In this document: positions 8,482 to 34,353 of the stretch, piece by piece
How positions within the stretch are numbered: position 1 is the first letter of the stretch
How the letters are laid out: the number at the start of each line of letters is the position of its first letter
NCBI GenBank assembly: GCA_029265815.1
Contig: JAJUGU010000010.1
Location: 1 to 64,000 of the forward strand
From: Anaerolineaceae bacterium
GTDB taxonomy: Bacteria > Chloroflexota > Anaerolineae > Anaerolineales > Anaerolineaceae
DNA: 64,000 bases
Direction: 5' to 3'
Program-made: the position numbers and the translations under genes
The notes under the pieces: model-generated
What the model saw: the letters and a program-made list of their open reading frames with translations, nothing else
Told to the model about the DNA's origin: nothing
Databases searched by the model: none

Positions 8482-9531
8482 ATGCGTGAAGTCTGGAATG
8501 ATATCGAGAAATGGCAGCAAGAGGCAAAAACAACAACCCTCGCAACTGTGGTCTATGTGGGGGGGTCTTCTTTACGCCCCGCCGGATCGAAGATGGCAAT
8601 CAGCAGTACCGGTGAAATTTCTGGATCGGTAACTGGCGGTTGCGTTGAAGGTGCAGTATTCGAAGAAGCCAGATCTGTGGTGAAAACTGGAACTCCCCGG
8701 TTGGTTTCTTATGGCGTTTCAAATGAACAGGCCTGGGAAGTAGGCCTTTCCTGTGGTGGATCTGTGAGGATATTCATTGAATCCATGGCCACACCTCCCT
8801 GGAAAACCATTCTGCCCGCTTTGAAAGAAGCAATCGACCATAACCAGGCTGTCGCTCTGGCAACTGTCACATCTGGCACGGGATTGGGTAATAAGATGCT
8901 TCTTCGTAAAGACGGAAGCCAGGTGGGTGACCTTGGAGAACCTTCATTGACCAGTGATGTTGCCAGCCAGATCACCTCAAACTGGGAGGTTAGAGATGCC
9001 CATGAAATTACCTTTCATACAGCATTAGAGACGGCCGCCATTTTTGTTGAATTTATCCTTCCCCGGCCGCGTTTGGTTATTGTTGGTGCATCTCATGTTG
9101 CCATTCCCCTGGTATCGCTGGCCAAGACTCTCGATTATCACACCATCGTCCTCGATGCACGCTCAGCTTTCGCAACCCGCGAGCGGTTCCCACACGCTGA
9201 TGAATTGATCATTGGTTGGCCTGCAGAAGATCTTAAGAAACTTTCTCCAGATGCTTCAACCTGCATTGTTTGCCTGAGTCACGATGATAAACTGGATAAC
9301 CCGGCCTTAATGGAAGCTCTTAAAAGCGATGCACGTTATATCGGAGCGCTGGGTTCGAAAGTGACGCACGCCAAGCGTTTAGATGCGCTAAGGGAAGAAG
9401 GCGCTTCTGAAGAACAACTTAAGCGTATTCACGCACCCGTTGGATTAAAGATCGGAGCCAAACATCCGGCTGAAATTGCACTTTCGATCATGGCAGAGAT
9501 CATCGCCTCGCAGCATGGATATGCAGGATGA
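8482..9531 (+). CDS. XdhC/CoxI-family molybdoenzyme accessory protein
   Basis: 349 residues. The N-terminal XdhC domain shows VVYVGGSSLRPAGSKM, GSVTGGCVEG and GLSCGGSVRIFIE; the C-terminal half is an NAD-binding-like Rossmann domain beginning RLVIVGASHVAIPL and ending with IGALGSK and GLKIGAKHPAEIA. In the family, XdhC binds molybdenum cofactor, helps its sulfuration and passes it to molybdenum hydroxylases such as xanthine dehydrogenase. It overlaps the next gene by 4 bases (ATGA), so the two are co-translated. No hydroxylase subunit gene is nearby, so its client enzyme must be elsewhere in the genome. Confidence 0.9.
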   Translation: MREVWNDIEKWQQEAKTTTLATVVYVGGSSLRPAGSKMAISSTGEISGSVTGGCVEGAVFEEARSVVKTGTPRLVSYGVSNEQAWEVGLSCGGSVRIFIESMATPPWKTILPALKEAIDHNQAVALATVTSGTGLGNKMLLRKDGSQVGDLGEPSLTSDVASQITSNWEVRDAHEITFHTALETAAIFVEFILPRPRLVIVGASHVAIPLVSLAKTLDYHTIVLDARSAFATRERFPHADELIIGWPAEDLKKLSPDASTCIVCLSHDDKLDNPALMEALKSDARYIGALGSKVTHAKRLDALREEGASEEQLKRIHAPVGLKIGAKHPAEIALSIMAEIIASQHGYAG

Positions 9532-10145
9532 ACAACGAAAATCATCCTTCCGGGAAGCAAATCGCTGCGGTCATCCTGGCCGCGGGCGGTTCAAGCCGCA
9601 TGGGTCAACCCAAACTGCTGCTGCCCTGGCAAGGTGAAGCATTGATCCGCTGGCCGGTAAAAATCGCTCTCGCTGCCGGCCTATCACCTGTGATTGTGGT
9701 CACCGGAGCATCGGCAGATGAGGTCGAAGAAGCGCTCAACGGGCTGCCTGTGGAAATCATTCACAACCCTGATTGGGAAAAAGGCCAGAGCACATCCTTG
9801 CGCAGTGGAATGGCCGCGCTACCTGATACTGCTGAAGCCGCAATCTTATTTTTAGGTGATCAACCAAAGCTTCCCGGTGATCTAGTCGAGAAAATGATTG
9901 CTGAATTCCGTGCCCACGCACCTGCCACTCCGATTTTCATCGCTTCCTTCCACGGAAAACGGGGAAACCCGGTCCTCTTTGACCGTTCTGTTTTTCAAGA
10001 TTTACAACGCATAGAAGGAGATACCGGTGGAAGGACGATTTTTAATCAATATCCGGTTCAATATATTCCGGTGGAAAGTGAAGACGTGCTGACCGACATC
10101 GATTCGCCTGAAGATTACCAGAAGTTTATCGAAAGCCACGAGTAG
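9528..10145 (+). CDS. MobA-like nucleotidyltransferase (molybdenum cofactor cytidylyltransferase type)
   Basis: 205 residues with the nucleotidyltransferase opening AAVILAAGGSSRMGQPKLLLP, the nucleotide-binding loop of this family, and LGDQPKLP for the metal-binding Asp. Members next to XdhC are of the MocA type, which attach CMP to molybdopterin to give the MCD form used by xanthine dehydrogenase-family enzymes; MobA (GMP) is an alternative. The translational overlap with xdhC-like gene supports the MocA reading. The C-terminal DIDSPEDY is common in the family. Confidence 0.85.
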   Translation: MNNENHPSGKQIAAVILAAGGSSRMGQPKLLLPWQGEALIRWPVKIALAAGLSPVIVVTGASADEVEEALNGLPVEIIHNPDWEKGQSTSLRSGMAALPDTAEAAILFLGDQPKLPGDLVEKMIAEFRAHAPATPIFIASFHGKRGNPVLFDRSVFQDLQRIEGDTGGRTIFNQYPVQYIPVESEDVLTDIDSPEDYQKFIESHE

Positions 10146-13019: not shown

Positions 13020-13532
13020 TTACATTTCAATAACCAAACCGTTTACTTTTTGCACCACCTTGACCGTAGTAGAACCAGCGAGGGCTTTTTCAGTGAAACA
13101 CATCTGACGTGCAAGGCGGATCAGAGTCAAAATCTCATCAGGTTGTTCTTCGGTATCGATCAATATCTCGACCTCAAATCCATCACAGAAACCTTCAGCA
13201 TCTCCTTTAAGCACCGATCCCTGTTCATGAAAATGAGCGGTGACGCGCACGCGTTCGTTACTGATCCTCAGTCTTTTTTTGGCCGCAACCTGCGACACAT
13301 GCGAGATCAGTCAAAGAGCCATGCCACTGACAAAATAAGTCAGCGGTGTGGGAGCGGTTCCCTCTCCTCCAGGCATGTAATTGCCTTCATCGCTGATCAA
13401 CGCATATGACCTACCAGTTTCAGGCTGCCCTGCGATGACCTGTTTGCGCCATTTTTCGATGGAACTGGCTTCAGCAACCACTACGATGTCTCTATAACCG
13501 GCTGCTGGTTTTTCATCAGTTGACGCTACCAT
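13020..13532 (-). CDS. OsmC-family peroxidase/redox protein with in-frame UGA at the catalytic position (probable selenoprotein)
   Basis: Read through the single UGA at 13,313-13,311, this is one open frame of 170 residues with a consensus Shine-Dalgarno AAAGGAGG before the ATG. The N-terminal part (to residue 73) carries GGEGTAPTPLTYFVSGMAL, the helix that in OsmC/Ohr proteins leads into the peroxidatic cysteine; the UGA falls exactly there, at residue 74. The C-terminal part keeps the second, resolving cysteine as Cys145 in RQMCFTEKAL. Both halves are in the same frame with only four sense codons between the UGA and the next possible start (a GTG). A hairpin with GGU in its loop lies 20 bases after the UGA (see SECIS entry). 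OsmC-like proteins with Sec are known from environmental sequence surveys. If Sec is not inserted, this is a pseudogene split by a nonsense codon. It follows the PfkB kinase by 11 bases in the ABC operon. Confidence 0.75.
13260..13311 (-). promoter_or_regulatory. Candidate bacterial SECIS element
   Basis: On the minus strand, starting with the A of the UGA, ACUGAUC (13311-13305) pairs perfectly with GAUCAGU (13266-13260). Inside it CGCA and UGCG form a stem with the loop GGU (13290-13288); a G-C and a U-G pair can extend this stem. The GGU lies 20 bases after the UGA. In Escherichia coli fdhF the SelB-bound hairpin has the similar GCAGGUCUGC apex 18 bases after its UGA. A short stem with G in the first loop positions at this distance is the accepted bacterial SECIS pattern. 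The element sits inside coding sequence, as expected for bacteria. Confidence 0.7.
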
Positions 13533-13543
13533 TATGACCTCCT

Positions 13544-14431
13544 TTACTGAATTCGCTTCGCCTTTTGTTTTTCAAGTATCGTTGCCACCTGCTGGCAGGT
13601 ACCTCGCCACGGCCCTGGCAATTCTTGCTTCAGAGAAGTGATCACGCCAGCCCAATCACATGCCGTTTGAGGGTCCTGTGATAATCGCATCGAACAATAA
13701 GTTGAAAAACAGGTGTCACCACGGCCGGTTCTACCAGCCAGAGACCTGGGATTGAAAGGAGCAAAATAAAACTTACCATCTACATAAGCGGTAATTCCTG
13801 AAGATTGCGTCAGCACGATTTCTGTCGGCCCCAATGTGTGCAATTTTTCTGCTGCAGACTCGATCTCGGTTTCACCGGTGATAAATTCCGCTTCGGCTTT
13901 ATCCACTTTCAGATAGGTAACGTATTTCAGCCCTTCAGCCATTTCAGCCCAAGGTTTGAATTCCAATCCATCTTCCACCGGCACACGCACAAAACCCTGA
14001 ATATCCAATGCAACTGGCGCCCGTTTGGATAGTGCTGCCAGCAACTGTAAATCGACCTCGCCGGCATAAAGCGGAGAAAGCATGATCATGCGTGTCTTAA
14101 AATCCGGAATCTCATCAAGAGTATATTTTCCGCCATAACCAATGGGTTTACAGATGCGGCGTTCCATATCCGCAGATTGATAATAATTGGCAATCCCCGA
14201 CGTTCCATCTGCCGGAGTAGTAAAAATTTCAACGCCTTCCTGACGAAGCTCTTCCAGGCGCGGAAAATCATCTGGATGCAGGCGTGTAATTACAGCGACT
14301 TTTAATCCCAGGCGCCGAATCACCACACTGCCATAGTAAACCCCTCCCCCTGATGCTATCTCCTCTACCCCATCAATGATCAGTTTGTCTTTGGCAAAAT
14401 TGCCGATCATTATAATATCAAATTCATTCAT
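13544..14431 (-). CDS. PfkB-family carbohydrate kinase
   Basis: 295 residues from the ATG at 14,431, four bases after the stop of the ATPase gene; a start at 14,479 would overlap that gene and adds an unlike N-terminus. The protein opens FDIIMIGNFAKDKLIIDG, has the ASGGGVYYGSVVIRRLG substrate loop and the C-terminal GRTGRGDTCFSTY, in which the GRGD turn holds the catalytic Asp. Fold and motifs are of the ribokinase/PfkB family. Its place between an ABC ATPase and the OsmC-like gene suggests that it phosphorylates the transported solute. The substrate is unknown. Confidence 0.8.
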   Translation of the reverse strand: MNEFDIIMIGNFAKDKLIIDGVEEIASGGGVYYGSVVIRRLGLKVAVITRLHPDDFPRLEELRQEGVEIFTTPADGTSGIANYYQSADMERRICKPIGYGGKYTLDEIPDFKTRMIMLSPLYAGEVDLQLLAALSKRAPVALDIQGFVRVPVEDGLEFKPWAEMAEGLKYVTYLKVDKAEAEFITGETEIESAAEKLHTLGPTEIVLTQSSGITAYVDGKFYFAPFNPRSLAGRTGRGDTCFSTYCSMRLSQDPQTACDWAGVITSLKQELPGPWRGTCQQVATILEKQKAKRIQ

Positions 14432-28485: not shown

Positions 28486-29883
28486 ATGGATAATTTTGAT
28501 GTAGTAGTGATTGGCGCAGGTCCCGGCGGTTACGTGGCAGCCATCCGTGCAGCCCAGCTCGGAATGCAAACAGCCATCATCGATAAAGAATGGCTGGGCG
28601 GGGTTTGCTTGAACGTTGGCTGCATCCCCTCAAAAGCTCTGTTGAAAAACGCAGAAGTTGCGCATACCCTGCGCGAACGTGGTAAAGATTTCGGTTTCAC
28701 AATCGAGAATCTACAATTAGATTATGCTGCTGCGGTAAAACGCAGCCGCCAGGTATCTGATCGACTCACCCGTGGAATTGGGTTCTTAATGAAGAAAAAC
28801 AACATCCCTGTGATCATGGGCACCGCAAGGTTCACAGCGCGAGACACGGTGGTCGTGACCGACAAACAGGGGCAAGAACGCGAGATCAAAGCCAGAAATT
28901 TCATTGTAGCCACCGGCAGCCAGCCTGTGGCCATCCCGGGTGTGACAGTTGATGGTCAAAAAGTCATCAGTTTTAGAGATGCCATCCTGCAAGAGAGACT
29001 ACCGGCTTCAGTGGTCATCATTGGTGCCGGTGCCATTGGTCTGGAGTTCGCCACAATTTGGAGTTCCTACGGTGTGCAGGTAACCCTGGTAGAGATGCTG
29101 CCGCGAATTGCCCCGCTTGAAGACGAAGAGATCAGCATCGAATTGCAGAAATCTTTCTCCAAGCGCGGAATCAAAATCATGACGGACACCCGGGTGATGT
29201 CAGTGGAAAAAAATCCAACCGGCGTTCTGGTAAAAGTTGCCGGTAAAGACGGTGAAGTTGTTCTCGAGGCCGAACAGGCATTGATGGCAATCGGTTTTAA
29301 ACCGAACAGCCTCAACCTTGGTCTGGAGGAGATCGGCGTTGAACTTACCGACCGAAAACACATTAAGGTTGATGAGCGAATGTCTACCAGTGTGCCTGGC
29401 ATCTGGGCTGTGGGTGATGTTACAGGCAAGCTGTTGCTGGCGCACGTGGCCTCCACCCAGGGCATTTTATGTGCTGAAGCCATTGGCGGTAAAGAGACAA
29501 AACCGATCGATTACACCATGGTACCCCGCGCTACATATTCCCAGCCGCAGGTTGCCTCCTTTGGCTACACTGAAGCTCAGGCCAGAAATATGGGCAAAAC
29601 AATCAAGGTGGGAAAGTTTCCCTTCCAACCCAACGGTAAAGCCCTCGGCCTCGGCGATTATGCCGGGTTTGTTAAGCTCATGATCGACGAATCTACAAAC
29701 AAGATCCTGGGCGCACACCTGATTGGTCCTGAAGTATCAGAACTGCTGCCTGAACTCACACTGGCGCAGCAAAATGACCTTCCGGTCAGTGCAGTTGCAG
29801 GCAACATTCACGCACACCCCACACTGAGCGAAGCCATCATGGAAGCTGCAGAATCGGCTGAAGGACACGCCATTCATATCTGA
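28486..29883 (+). CDS. lpdA: Dihydrolipoyl dehydrogenase
   Basis: 465 residues, standard length. FAD motif VVVIGAGPGGYVAAIRAAQLG, redox-active disulphide Cys41/Cys46 in CLNVGCIPSK, NAD motif VVIIGAGAIGLEFATIWSSYG, FAD-binding GIWAVGDVTGKLLLAH, and the C-terminal catalytic His in HAHPTLSE. It reoxidises lipoamide in 2-oxoacid dehydrogenase or glycine cleavage complexes. No other subunit of those complexes is beside it. AGGAG precedes the start. Confidence 0.95.
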   Translation: MDNFDVVVIGAGPGGYVAAIRAAQLGMQTAIIDKEWLGGVCLNVGCIPSKALLKNAEVAHTLRERGKDFGFTIENLQLDYAAAVKRSRQVSDRLTRGIGFLMKKNNIPVIMGTARFTARDTVVVTDKQGQEREIKARNFIVATGSQPVAIPGVTVDGQKVISFRDAILQERLPASVVIIGAGAIGLEFATIWSSYGVQVTLVEMLPRIAPLEDEEISIELQKSFSKRGIKIMTDTRVMSVEKNPTGVLVKVAGKDGEVVLEAEQALMAIGFKPNSLNLGLEEIGVELTDRKHIKVDERMSTSVPGIWAVGDVTGKLLLAHVASTQGILCAEAIGGKETKPIDYTMVPRATYSQPQVASFGYTEAQARNMGKTIKVGKFPFQPNGKALGLGDYAGFVKLMIDESTNKILGAHLIGPEVSELLPELTLAQQNDLPVSAVAGNIHAHPTLSEAIMEAAESAEGHAIHI

Positions 29884-30267: not shown

Positions 30268-30300
30268 TATGCTATAATCACCTCTTGATAAGAGGTGAAA
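30268..30300 (+). promoter_or_regulatory. secA extended -10 promoter and Shine-Dalgarno-sequestering dyad
   Basis: TGCTATAAT (TATAAT at 30,273-30,278) is an extended -10 box. Directly after it CACCTCT (30,279-30,285) is the perfect complement of AGAGGTG (30,291-30,297), the Shine-Dalgarno of secA. Transcripts from this promoter start about 30,285 and would lack most of the 5' arm, so their ribosome site is free, whereas read-through transcripts from the gene upstream would have it hidden. Confidence 0.55.
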
Positions 30301-33300
30301 ATGGTTTTAAACAAACTTGCCCACGTATTTGGGGGAGATCCGCACAAGCGTGAAATCGAAAAACTCTCGCTGATCGTTGAAAAGATCAATGAGTTAGAAG
30401 CACCGTATGAAGCACTCAGTAATGATGAATTGAAGGCAAAAACAGTTGAATTTAAACAGCGCCTTTCTGATGGTGAGACGCTTAACGACCTGCTGCCAGA
30501 AGCTTTTGCTGCAGTGCGTGAAGCCAGCAAACGCACTATTGGGTTGCGCCATTACGACATTCAGCTGATCGGCGGTATGACTTTACATTATGGCAAGATC
30601 GCCGAAATGCGCACCGGTGAAGGTAAAACCCTGGTAGCCACACTGCCGCTCTATCTAAATGCCCTGACTGGCCGTGGAGTCCATCTGGTCACAGTCAATG
30701 ATTACCTTGCGCGCCGTGACGCTCGCTGGATGGCGCCTGTTTATCAGATGCTTGGGCTGCGTGTTGGTGTATTGCAAATGGCAGCGCGGACTGAAAATGG
30801 GCGCAAGGCATTCATCGTCGATCTGGATCGGCCTAATGCACGCGAAGATCTACATCAGCTCGTGCTGGTAGACCGCCGTGAAGCCTACCAGGCTGATATT
30901 GTCTATGGAACCAACAGTGAATTTGGCTTTGACTATTTAAGAGATAACCTGACCATGACCCTGGCTGAGCGTGTCCAACGCGGCCATTACTTCGCAATCG
31001 TTGATGAGGTTGATAACATTCTTATTGATGAAGCACGTACTCCACTAATCATCTCTGGCCCGGCCGCTGATGAATCTGAAGGTTACATCCGCATGGCGCA
31101 GGTCGTTCGTGCTTTAAATCCAGAAGATTACGAAGTAAATGAGAAAGACCGTCAGGTAAGCCTTACTGAAATCGGTGACGCACATGTGGAGGAAATTCTC
31201 AACATGCCGCTGCGTAACCCAGACCGGCCAGAGGATATCACCCCCGAACAGGCAAGGATGTTAGGTTACCTGGAACAAGCCCTGCGCGCCCAGCACCTGT
31301 ATAAACGCAATAAAGACTACATCGTCCAGGGGGGTAAAGTCATCATCGTGGATGAGTTTACCGGCCGCCTGATGCCCGGAAGGCGCTGGTCAGAAGGCCT
31401 ACACCAGGCAATTGAGGCCAAAGAAGGCGTGCACATTGAACCTGAGAACGTTACCTACGCCACCATCACCATTCAGAATTACTTCCGAATGTACGAAAAA
31501 CTAGCCGGTATGACCGGTACAGCTCTTACAGAGGCTGAGGAATTCTCCAAGATCTACAAACTGGATGTGCTGCCTATTCCAATGAACCTGGAATATGTGG
31601 CTTCGCAGCAGAATTCTCCTCTGGTGGTAGTCGATACCAGAGACCGGCGTAATTACCCCGTACAATACTATGCTCGCAAGGATGACCCTTCTCGCGAACC
31701 AGTTTTTTGGCGCAGACAGGATTTTCCAGACATGGTTTATCGTACCCAAGAGGGTAAACTGCGCGCCATCGTGTCTGAAATCATGCATTACTATGCCATC
31801 GGTCGACCCCAATTGGTGGGAACGACTTCGGTCGAACACTCTGAACTTCTCTCGCTTCGATTGAACGCCGAGTCTTTGCGCAGGCTGGCACAGGTACTGG
31901 TCATCCGCAATGCGTGGATCGAAAAGAACAATAAATCACCTGAGTTGGAAATTGCCGAACTACAATTTCTCAACCGTCCCCTAAATGAATTAAATGTTGC
32001 AGAAATGCGTCCGGTAGCCCGGCAGGCAGGCCTTCCCTCAATCAACCCTGAAGATCCCGAGTTGATCGACCGTCTGCTCACGATTCTTGACCTGAATGAA
32101 ACTCACAAAGAACGCATCATATCTGTTCTGCAGGGTGGTATCCCGCACCAGGTGTTAAACGCCCGTAAACATGATGAAGAATCACAGATCATCGCGCGGG
32201 CAGGAGCTTTCGGCGCTGTAACCATCGCCACCAATATGGCAGGCCGTGGTGTGGATATCAAGCTCGGCGGTGAACTAAGCGAAGAAGTCCTCGCTGACGT
32301 GATTCGCGTACTGGAACGGGCCGGAGTGCATGAACCCTATGACATGTCAAATGATGCCCGGCGTGCCGAACTTGAAAAGCTTTCCATTGATCAGTATGGA
32401 ATCTACGAAGAATCAGTTAAAACCTTCATCAGATATCTTGATGACATGAAACGTGTCAGAGCGCTTGGCGGCCTGCATGTCATCGGTTCCGAACGACATG
32501 AAGCCCGCCGTATTGACAATCAGCTGCGCGGTCGCGCCGCCCGCCAGGGCGATCCTGGTTCCTCGCGGTTTTATCTGTCGCTTGAAGATGAACTGATGCG
32601 ACTTTTTGGCGGGGTTCAGATGGAAAGTCTGATGAGCCGCCTCAAGGTAGATCCAAGCCTGCCGATCGAAAGCAATCTGATCGGACGCATGGTCGAGCAG
32701 GCACAGGAAAGGGTCGAAGGCAATAACTTCGATGTTCGCAAACATCTTCTTGAATACGATGATGTCTTAAATTCACAGCGCAAGAGGATTTATGCAGAAC
32801 GTAACCGGGCTTTTGAAAAAGATGATCTTCACGATGACATCCTGGATATCTTGCGCACGGAACTTAATGAACGTATTCCAAAAGCTCTAAAAGATGAAGA
32901 AGGCCCCTGGAAACTGCTGGCTTATTTAGAAGAGGTTCAACCAACCATGGTGTTTGAGGCCGAAGGTGTTCGCGCGCCATCATACACGATGCACCTGATG
33001 CTAAATGAAATATCCCGCCGTATCGGCAACAACAAGGACGACGCACAATTGAAAGACATTCTCCTTGAACTGGCAAGAGAAACCATATCCATGGAGAATG
33101 AACACATTCTTCAATCGATTCGGGCATTAACCGAAAAGACTGAAGAAACAATTGACCAGATTCGCGCTGAACGCCTTGAGAGTGTAGATATCTTCTTCGA
33201 CGGTCTTGATACCAGCAGAGGAGAAGAAGGTGCACCGCAGCGCCGTCCCCAGGAAATGCTCGAGGAGTTATCCGGCCTGGTGCGCACGCCACTGCGGTTA

Positions 33301-34353
33301 TCATCAGATAAACTTCGCGCACTGCCTGACGGCGGTAGAGATGTGAAACAGCGTATCACAGACCAGATCACCCGGGCATTAAATTTCGTGGCTGTGTCTC
33401 GCACGATTACTGTGATCGAAAGACGCCTTGACGAAAGCTTAAACATGAGAGCTGGTGATCTTCAAGACCTTGAATGGTCTGAGGTTGCCAATGGCATCTT
33501 AACCCAGGCAGAAACCATTCTTAATAAACGTGCCGAGGCACTCTTATCGTCTCAGGGACAGGTCAGCCAGAATATCGACAGTATCCTCAGCCGCACCACA
33601 ACCAATGATACCGGTGAGAACAGACTGGTAGACCTGCTGACAGGCATGAGCACCGGAACAAAGATGGCAATAGATCCCAAAACTCACCAGCGTGGGATGA
33701 AACGGGTAATCCTGTTCAACTACATTTTCAGGGCGGCGCGTTTCATTCAAGATGAACCGGTGCCCTCTGTGACCGTGGATGTGTTGGAACATCTTGAAAT
33801 GATCCAGAAACGCCTTGAAACCGTATGGGGGAAGATTGAATATGAACGCTTCCGACTTTCCGGCATGTCGCTTCAGAATCTGGAAAATCCCATCAAAGAA
33901 GCCTGGCTGGCTGAATTGGGTCAAGACACTTCATCCCCTCTTCTGCTGCAACAGCCAGACGCCCTCGATTTACAGCAGCGAGAAGCTCTTGAAAGGCTGC
34001 TCGGGAGAAGGGTGCAGAACCAGATCCACCGCCATATCCTGTTGAGCGTCATTTCTGAATTGTGGGTAGATCACCTGACCCGCGTGGATGCCCTGCGTGT
34101 TTCAATCGGTCTGGAAGCCTTTGCTCAGAGGGATCCGCTCGTGCAGTATAAGGGACGCGCTTCTGAGATGTTTACAGAGCTCTTGAGTGATATCCGTGCA
34201 GGTGTGATCGGCCGCATGTTTCTCTTCCATCCCCGAAGGCCTGGCGGTCAAAGCAGTGGAAGTTCTTCACCCATCGGTGCATCAGCTCCTGCTCCTGCGG
34301 TGTCGCCCTCACAGGCTGTGCAGAGTGAAAAGAAGAAACGGAAACGTCACTGA
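30301..34353 (+). CDS. secA: Preprotein translocase ATPase SecA, enlarged form
   Basis: 1,350 residues from the ATG at 30,301 against about 850-950 in most bacteria. Walker A is MRTGEGKTL at 103-111 and Walker B the DEVD at 235-238. Two expansions are clear. About 90 extra residues lie between GTTSVEHSE (507) and HQVLNARKH (about 616) in the second nucleotide-binding half. About 300 extra residues lie between [14 protein letters not shown] (about 750) and the [12 protein letters not shown] two-helix-finger region (about 1,255). The C-terminus ends in a basic KKKRKRH tail without the CxC zinc motif that binds SecB. It drives protein export through SecYEG. The size fits SecA of Chloroflexota, as I remember it; the function of the inserts is unknown. 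Confidence 0.95.

Follow-up and report, generated by a model that had tools for sequence, protein, structure and literature searches.

An OsmC-like gene interrupted by a single in-frame UGA codon raises the question of whether that codon specifies selenocysteine (Sec), ends the protein, arose as a nonsense change or sequencing error, or is read in this lineage as some other amino acid. The gene lies on the minus strand at positions 13532-13020 of the window, the 64,000-nucleotide stretch of an Anaerolineaceae contig that was analysed as a whole. Two open reading frames, at 13532-13311 and 13298-13020, share one frame here and are joined by a single TGA (13313-13311) that follows 73 codons. Translated with TGA as Sec (U), they yield a product of 170 residues that runs from an ATG start to a TAA stop (13022-13020), with Sec at residue 74 and a cysteine at residue 145 (codon 13100-13098). 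The Shine-Dalgarno-like sequence AAAGGAGGT stands ahead of the ATG at 13545-13537. Both this putative ribosome-binding site and the two same-frame OsmC-like pieces with one UGA between them had been reported in a preliminary description of the locus, and both are borne out by the sequence and its translation. The 170-residue product matches the Pfam OsmC family at 46.6 bits (cut-off 27.5) and the NCBIfam family NF041052, "OsmC-related (seleno)protein", at 120.6 bits (cut-off 95). Seven TGA codons in the window have at least 60 open codons upstream, counted from a start codon, together with at least 80 downstream; the TGA at 13313 is the only one of the seven that is followed by a GG-loop stem of more than 3 bp (6 bp). 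Judged by sequence comparison, minus-strand 13532-13020 is a genuine selenoprotein gene of the OsmC superfamily in Anaerolineaceae, and annotation software that treats all UGA codons as terminators would be expected to split it in two.

Homologues and the selenocysteine-decoding machinery

A search of 61 related genomes returned 15 matches above the NF041052 cut-off, ten of them with one in-frame TGA and five without. A scan of named genomes yielded 29 loci, of which 26 are titled Chloroflexi, Anaerolineae, Anaerolineaceae or Bellilinea, which bears out the Chloroflexota-like genome that had been suggested from the window; the others comprise two spirochaetes and one member of the Syntrophomonadaceae. 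One of the 29 loci, a UGA form, belongs to a cultured isolate, Bellilinea caldifistulae GOMI-1 (L066). When 396 genomes were drawn from the class, seven matches were obtained at 1e-15, six with an internal TGA and one without. After the removal of double copies, the final comparison set held 34 loci. Omitted from these 34 rows were second copies from genomes already in the set (L001, L022-L034, L080 and L081), matches below the NF041052 cut-off (L036-L050, plus others with no locus assigned), a weaker match with no internal stop from the 396-genome draw (L086), and L021, a diverged Cys homologue from a selA-positive genome (G020), even though it scores above the NF041052 cut-off. In the tree, a UGA form from a record titled Syntrophomonadaceae (Bacillota; L072) is placed close to those of Anaerolineaceae.

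The codon at the Sec position is TGA in 26 of the 34 loci, 25 of which come from other assemblies, and TGT or TGC in the remaining eight, which thus have Cys exactly where the others have UGA. The motif in the 26 UGA rows is UxxS in 23 and UxxT in three. Cys145, which had been described as a retained resolving cysteine, is present here and in every one of the 34 rows, and a further Cys at position 116 is found in 32.

All of the components of Sec decoding that the preliminary description had named were found in the source genome of the window (2.58 Mb, 99.43% complete). These are selA (565.5 bits), selB (340 bits), selD (356.8 bits) and tRNA-Sec (selC; 70.9 bits, anticodon tca (UCA) by ARAGORN), each of them above its cut-off. 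The same searches of 14 control genomes gave matches above cut-off for selB in two, tRNA-Sec in five, selA in one and selD in two. The selD gene of the source genome (L019; G000 C16:15924-16853) has an in-frame TGA of its own, which lies within the motif TCAGU; it is therefore probably itself a selenoprotein gene, and a second one in this genome.

Across the comparison set, selA scored above cut-off in 24 of the 26 UGA genomes versus none of the eight Cys genomes (Fisher 2.5e-6, with kinship ignored). The UGA genome G023 holds a 187-bit selA fragment along with tRNA-Sec, while G365, an assembly that is 67% complete, has no selA and a tRNA-Sec of 72.2 bits. Weak selA matches of 21.5 and 28.4 bits occur in two of the Cys genomes, and similarly weak second matches are found in selA-positive genomes too. 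At E <= 1e-9 and above cut-off, tRNA-Sec was detected in 21 of the 26 UGA genomes versus none of the eight Cys genomes, for four of which the best match of any strength was considered (below 43 bits, against a cut-off of 47) and for the other four only those at E <= 1e-9. SelB, searched in 20 genomes, was above cut-off in nine of the 12 UGA genomes examined versus none of the eight Cys genomes. Matches to the selB profile in the Cys genomes reach 195.9 bits, the three highest lying in frames of 400-433 residues, and are probably EF-Tu. The UGA genomes that gave no tRNA-Sec above cut-off at E <= 1e-9 (G008, G248, G160, G449 and G456) or, among the 12 examined, no SelB above cut-off (G023, G248 and G365) are for the most part incomplete or fragmented assemblies. 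Thus, a selA sequence or tRNA-Sec is present in all 26 UGA genomes and neither is found above cut-off in any of the eight Cys genomes, a split with a chance of 5.5e-8 if the genomes were unrelated. The reading of UGA as Sec is secure because close relatives without selenium machinery have an ordinary Cys at the same position. G020, outside the 34 rows, combines a diverged Cys homologue above the NF041052 cut-off with selA; Cys forms can therefore coexist with selA, which counts against a strict rule.

The hairpin downstream of the UGA codon

The apical SECIS hairpin occupies positions 13296-13282 of the minus strand and has a 6-bp stem, formed by the arms 13296-13291 and 13287-13282, with a GGU loop (13290-13288) that starts 20 nt after the UGA. 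In two distant rows, L084 and L085, the GGU stands one column earlier and is out of register, and both were omitted from a separate count over 24 rows. The stem is 95.5% paired over all 26 UGA rows and 96.5% paired over the 24. Within the 24 rows, compensatory changes on both sides are seen in two of the six pairs: one passes from G-C to U-A or A-U in four rows, and the other from U-A to A-U in four rows and to U-G in six. Three of the other pairs are invariant, and the pair adjacent to the loop is unpaired in five of the 24 rows. The 26-row count has both-side changes in three of the six pairs, one of which (columns 23-27) comes from L084 and L085, as do two cells of pair 18-32.

The apical stem gives a covariation score of 0.248 over the 24 rows versus at most 0.065 when the partners are slid. 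None of 500 shuffles reaches 0.248, a result that kinship among the rows can produce on its own; an equal number of pairs changed on both sides is seen in 103 of the 500. The same stem is only 16.7% paired in the eight Cys rows. Accordingly, RNAalifold found the apical hairpin in the UGA rows and no structure in the eight Cys rows. In the 3' arm, Ala is encoded by GCG in all 26 UGA rows versus none of the eight Cys rows, seven of which have Ala at that position; among the other Ala codons of the UGA genes, GCG accounts for 50 of 230. With its conserved and covarying apical stem, this element has the character of a SECIS hairpin with a G in the apical loop directly after the UGA.

The SECIS-like hairpin of the preliminary description had consisted of two stems, and both of them do fold in the window RNA. 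Its apical GGU stem is the one that is conserved, whereas the 7-bp stem at the base (arms 13311-13305 and 13266-13260; 13311-13260 overall, minus strand) is only 52.7% paired over the 26 UGA rows and was rejected as part of the conserved SECIS. Folding energy was likewise rejected as proof of a SECIS, as the energy of the window RNA is within the range of shuffled sequences (z = -1.46), 13 of 200 of which give an equally good fold.

The retention of this hairpin bears on the other readings of the codon. Were the UGA a true stop, the gene would encode a 73-residue piece and perhaps a second piece restarting at the GTG at 13298, which is indeed in frame and 12 bases downstream of the UGA. This is very improbable, however, given that the Cys homologues are single proteins, that the UGA rows, unlike the Cys rows, retain the hairpin together with its synonymous sites, and that the UGA accompanies selA and tRNA-Sec. 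A pseudogene or an error, that is, a nonsense change from TGT or TGC to TGA at the Cys codon of one genome, needs only a single base change, and relatives with TGT or TGC exist. Yet the same UGA recurs in 25 loci besides this one, with the protein conserved on both sides of it in keeping with the intact flanks remarked on earlier; the synonymous sites in the hairpin are conserved; and the invariant Cys145 lies downstream of the UGA. This explanation retains next to no probability, and because 25 of the 26 UGA loci are in other assemblies, sequencing error is excluded in practice. A reassignment of UGA in the lineage, for instance to Trp or Cys and with no bearing on selenium, would also leave the frame open, but is scarcely credible when TGA serves as an ordinary stop for 11 of the 45 window open reading frames of at least 200 residues, homologues without the UGA have Cys rather than Trp at the position, and the Sec machinery is present in the genome. 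All three were thus rejected, on evidence from the homologues, the TGA stops, the hairpin and the sel genes.

The reading of the UGA as Sec is the one that we retain, and what was initially termed a candidate selenoprotein is corroborated by the sel genes, the Cys homologues and the conserved apical stem. We place high confidence in the account as a whole, namely that of a predicted OsmC-superfamily selenoprotein into which Sec would be inserted at the UGA by way of SelB and the hairpin, and which likely engages in Sec74-Cys145 redox chemistry.

Proposed chemistry and relation to Ohr and other OsmC-like proteins

By analogy with established bacterial Sec decoding, and given the genes and hairpin described above, SelA and the selenophosphate provided by SelD would make Sec-tRNA-Sec, which SelB would carry. 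When the ribosome reaches the UGA at codon 74, SelB with its Sec-tRNA-Sec would bind the hairpin and Sec would be inserted. In the protein, the Sec74 selenolate would reduce a peroxide or similar electrophile, after which a selenenylsulfide between Sec74 and Cys145 would form and be reduced by a cellular thiol. Chemistry of this peroxide type is likely because Sec74 and Cys145 coincide in position with, respectively, the peroxidatic and the second redox Cys of Ohr. The protein most likely acts as an OsmC-type selenol/thiol peroxidase that relies on the Sec74-Cys145 pair.

Ohr reduces organic hydroperoxides with lipoylated partners, which reduce Ohr in turn, and its catalytic residues include the Glu of the NPEQ motif and an Arg close to the N-terminus. 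In the profile alignment, residue 74 falls on the Cys in the GYAAC stretch of Ohr, in line with the peroxidatic position that had been proposed for it, and Cys145 is matched to the Cys in CPYSNA. The NPEQ Glu is aligned with Leu64, and Leu is found at this position in all 34 rows, so the substrate or its binding mode probably differs from that of Ohr. The profile alignments to Ohr begin at residue 53 or later. Given the Leu in place of the Ohr Glu, the earlier designation of residue 74 as the catalytic peroxidatic cysteine is to be taken as positional homology rather than as a demonstrated activity. The Ohr family (TIGR03561, NF052637; PDB 3eer, 6mjn) shares the OsmC fold and both redox Cys positions with the present protein, which scores only 21.3 bits against TIGR03561 (cut-off 88.85) and 29 bits against NF052637 (cut-off 240). 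By the tests made, of which the TIGR03561 score and the NPEQ Glu go against membership, the protein is classed by its sequence as something other than an Ohr.

The closest solved relative, both by sequence (8.3e-11) and by fold (1.1e-8), is PDB 3cje, an OsmC-like protein of Jannaschia sp. that also has Leu at the position of the NPEQ Glu. It differs in having Cys at the Sec position, and shares 18% identity over the fold match. An AlphaFold model of the protein is of middling quality (pLDDT 71.6, pTM 0.69), and a Foldseek search with it matched OsmC and Ohr structures best, with 3cje first (E 1.1e-8) at a poor rmsd of 14.9. A search of PHROGs gave no match. The window also encodes a dihydrolipoyl dehydrogenase at 28486-29883 on the plus strand (568.2 bits; cut-off 408.8). 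By analogy with the lipoylated partners of Ohr, this enzyme is a possible reductant route for the OsmC-like selenoprotein.

Proteins of this kind are already known, and the Anaerolineaceae gene adds a new member. The score above the curated cut-off is what the product shares with NF041052 (OsmC_like_Se), from which no difference was shown, and that model matches 14 of 14 members of A1 at E <= 0.001. As the preliminary description had stated, OsmC-like selenoproteins are listed from metagenomes: the Sargasso Sea survey gives three sequences (PMC1088965) and the GOS survey five (PMC2398784), all with the motif UxxT, and such proteins also appear in tables in PMC9312934 and PMC13188914. As described in the two surveys, the Sargasso Sea and GOS form likewise belongs to the OsmC superfamily and has Sec in a redox motif and a bacterial SECIS; by the same published descriptions, it is set apart by its UxxT motif and marine metagenomic origin, in contrast to the mostly UxxS motif and Chloroflexota origin seen here. 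No report of an OsmC-like selenoprotein in Chloroflexota was found in the literature searched, which lacked most subscription papers. A selenoprotein that these sources trace to marine metagenome surveys is now placed in a group of which one member, B. caldifistulae GOMI-1, is in culture.

Exchange of selenocysteine and cysteine, and the gene neighbourhood

Four of the Cys forms (L063, L064, L065 and L069) constitute one group (100/100) that is placed among the Sec rows, on a tree with a weak backbone. The best tree has three Sec/Cys changes. A single clade of all eight Cys rows was not rejected (p-AU 0.095), nor was a single clade of the 24 Sec rows other than L084 and L085 (p-AU 0.086), so the Sec/Cys change may have gone in either direction. 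Independent Sec/Cys contrasts number one on supported branches and three on the best tree, numbers too small for a sign test. Downstream of Sec locus L056 and of the four-member Cys clade, all from the genus of the window, lies one and the same convergent gene, an indication that these loci are in orthologous positions.

A tentative reading, which we consider somewhat more doubtful than probable, is that Sec and Cys have been exchanged repeatedly in Anaerolineaceae in a manner tied to the whole Sec-decoding system, with a non-Ohr redox enzyme outlasting the use of selenium. If this is true, a lineage that lacks selA, SelB and tRNA-Sec retains a Cys form of the protein, which has no SECIS and no Ohr Glu, and one such Cys clade shares its genus with Sec forms and its downstream gene with one of them. 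A change from Sec to Cys here, should that prove to be the direction, would extend a short list of such changes. The occurrence of both a Sec and a Cys version of this protein in a single genus also provides a natural comparison, and the benefit of Sec to the enzyme is thus testable by setting the two side by side.

The GNAT and TerC neighbours of the gene in the window are common to five of the 33 other loci (L055 and L059-L062), and PfkB to three of those five. Over the short flanks compared (1.5-4 kb), no neighbour cluster occurs in more than six of the 34 loci, and gene neighbourhood was for that reason rejected as a clue to function. In the same five relatives, all of the genus, one gene family lies directly upstream of osmC, represented in L055 by malic enzyme. 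That upstream gene is absent from the window (13532-13546), where osmC comes directly after the PfkB kinase gene. XdhC-like and MocA-like molybdenum cofactor genes, both below their NCBIfam cut-offs, lie some 3 kb from osmC at 8482-10145 on the plus strand. Farther along the same strand, at 30295-34353, a SecA-like open reading frame of 1352 residues is matched in four and five stretches by the two best SecA models, which are 814 and 787 positions long.
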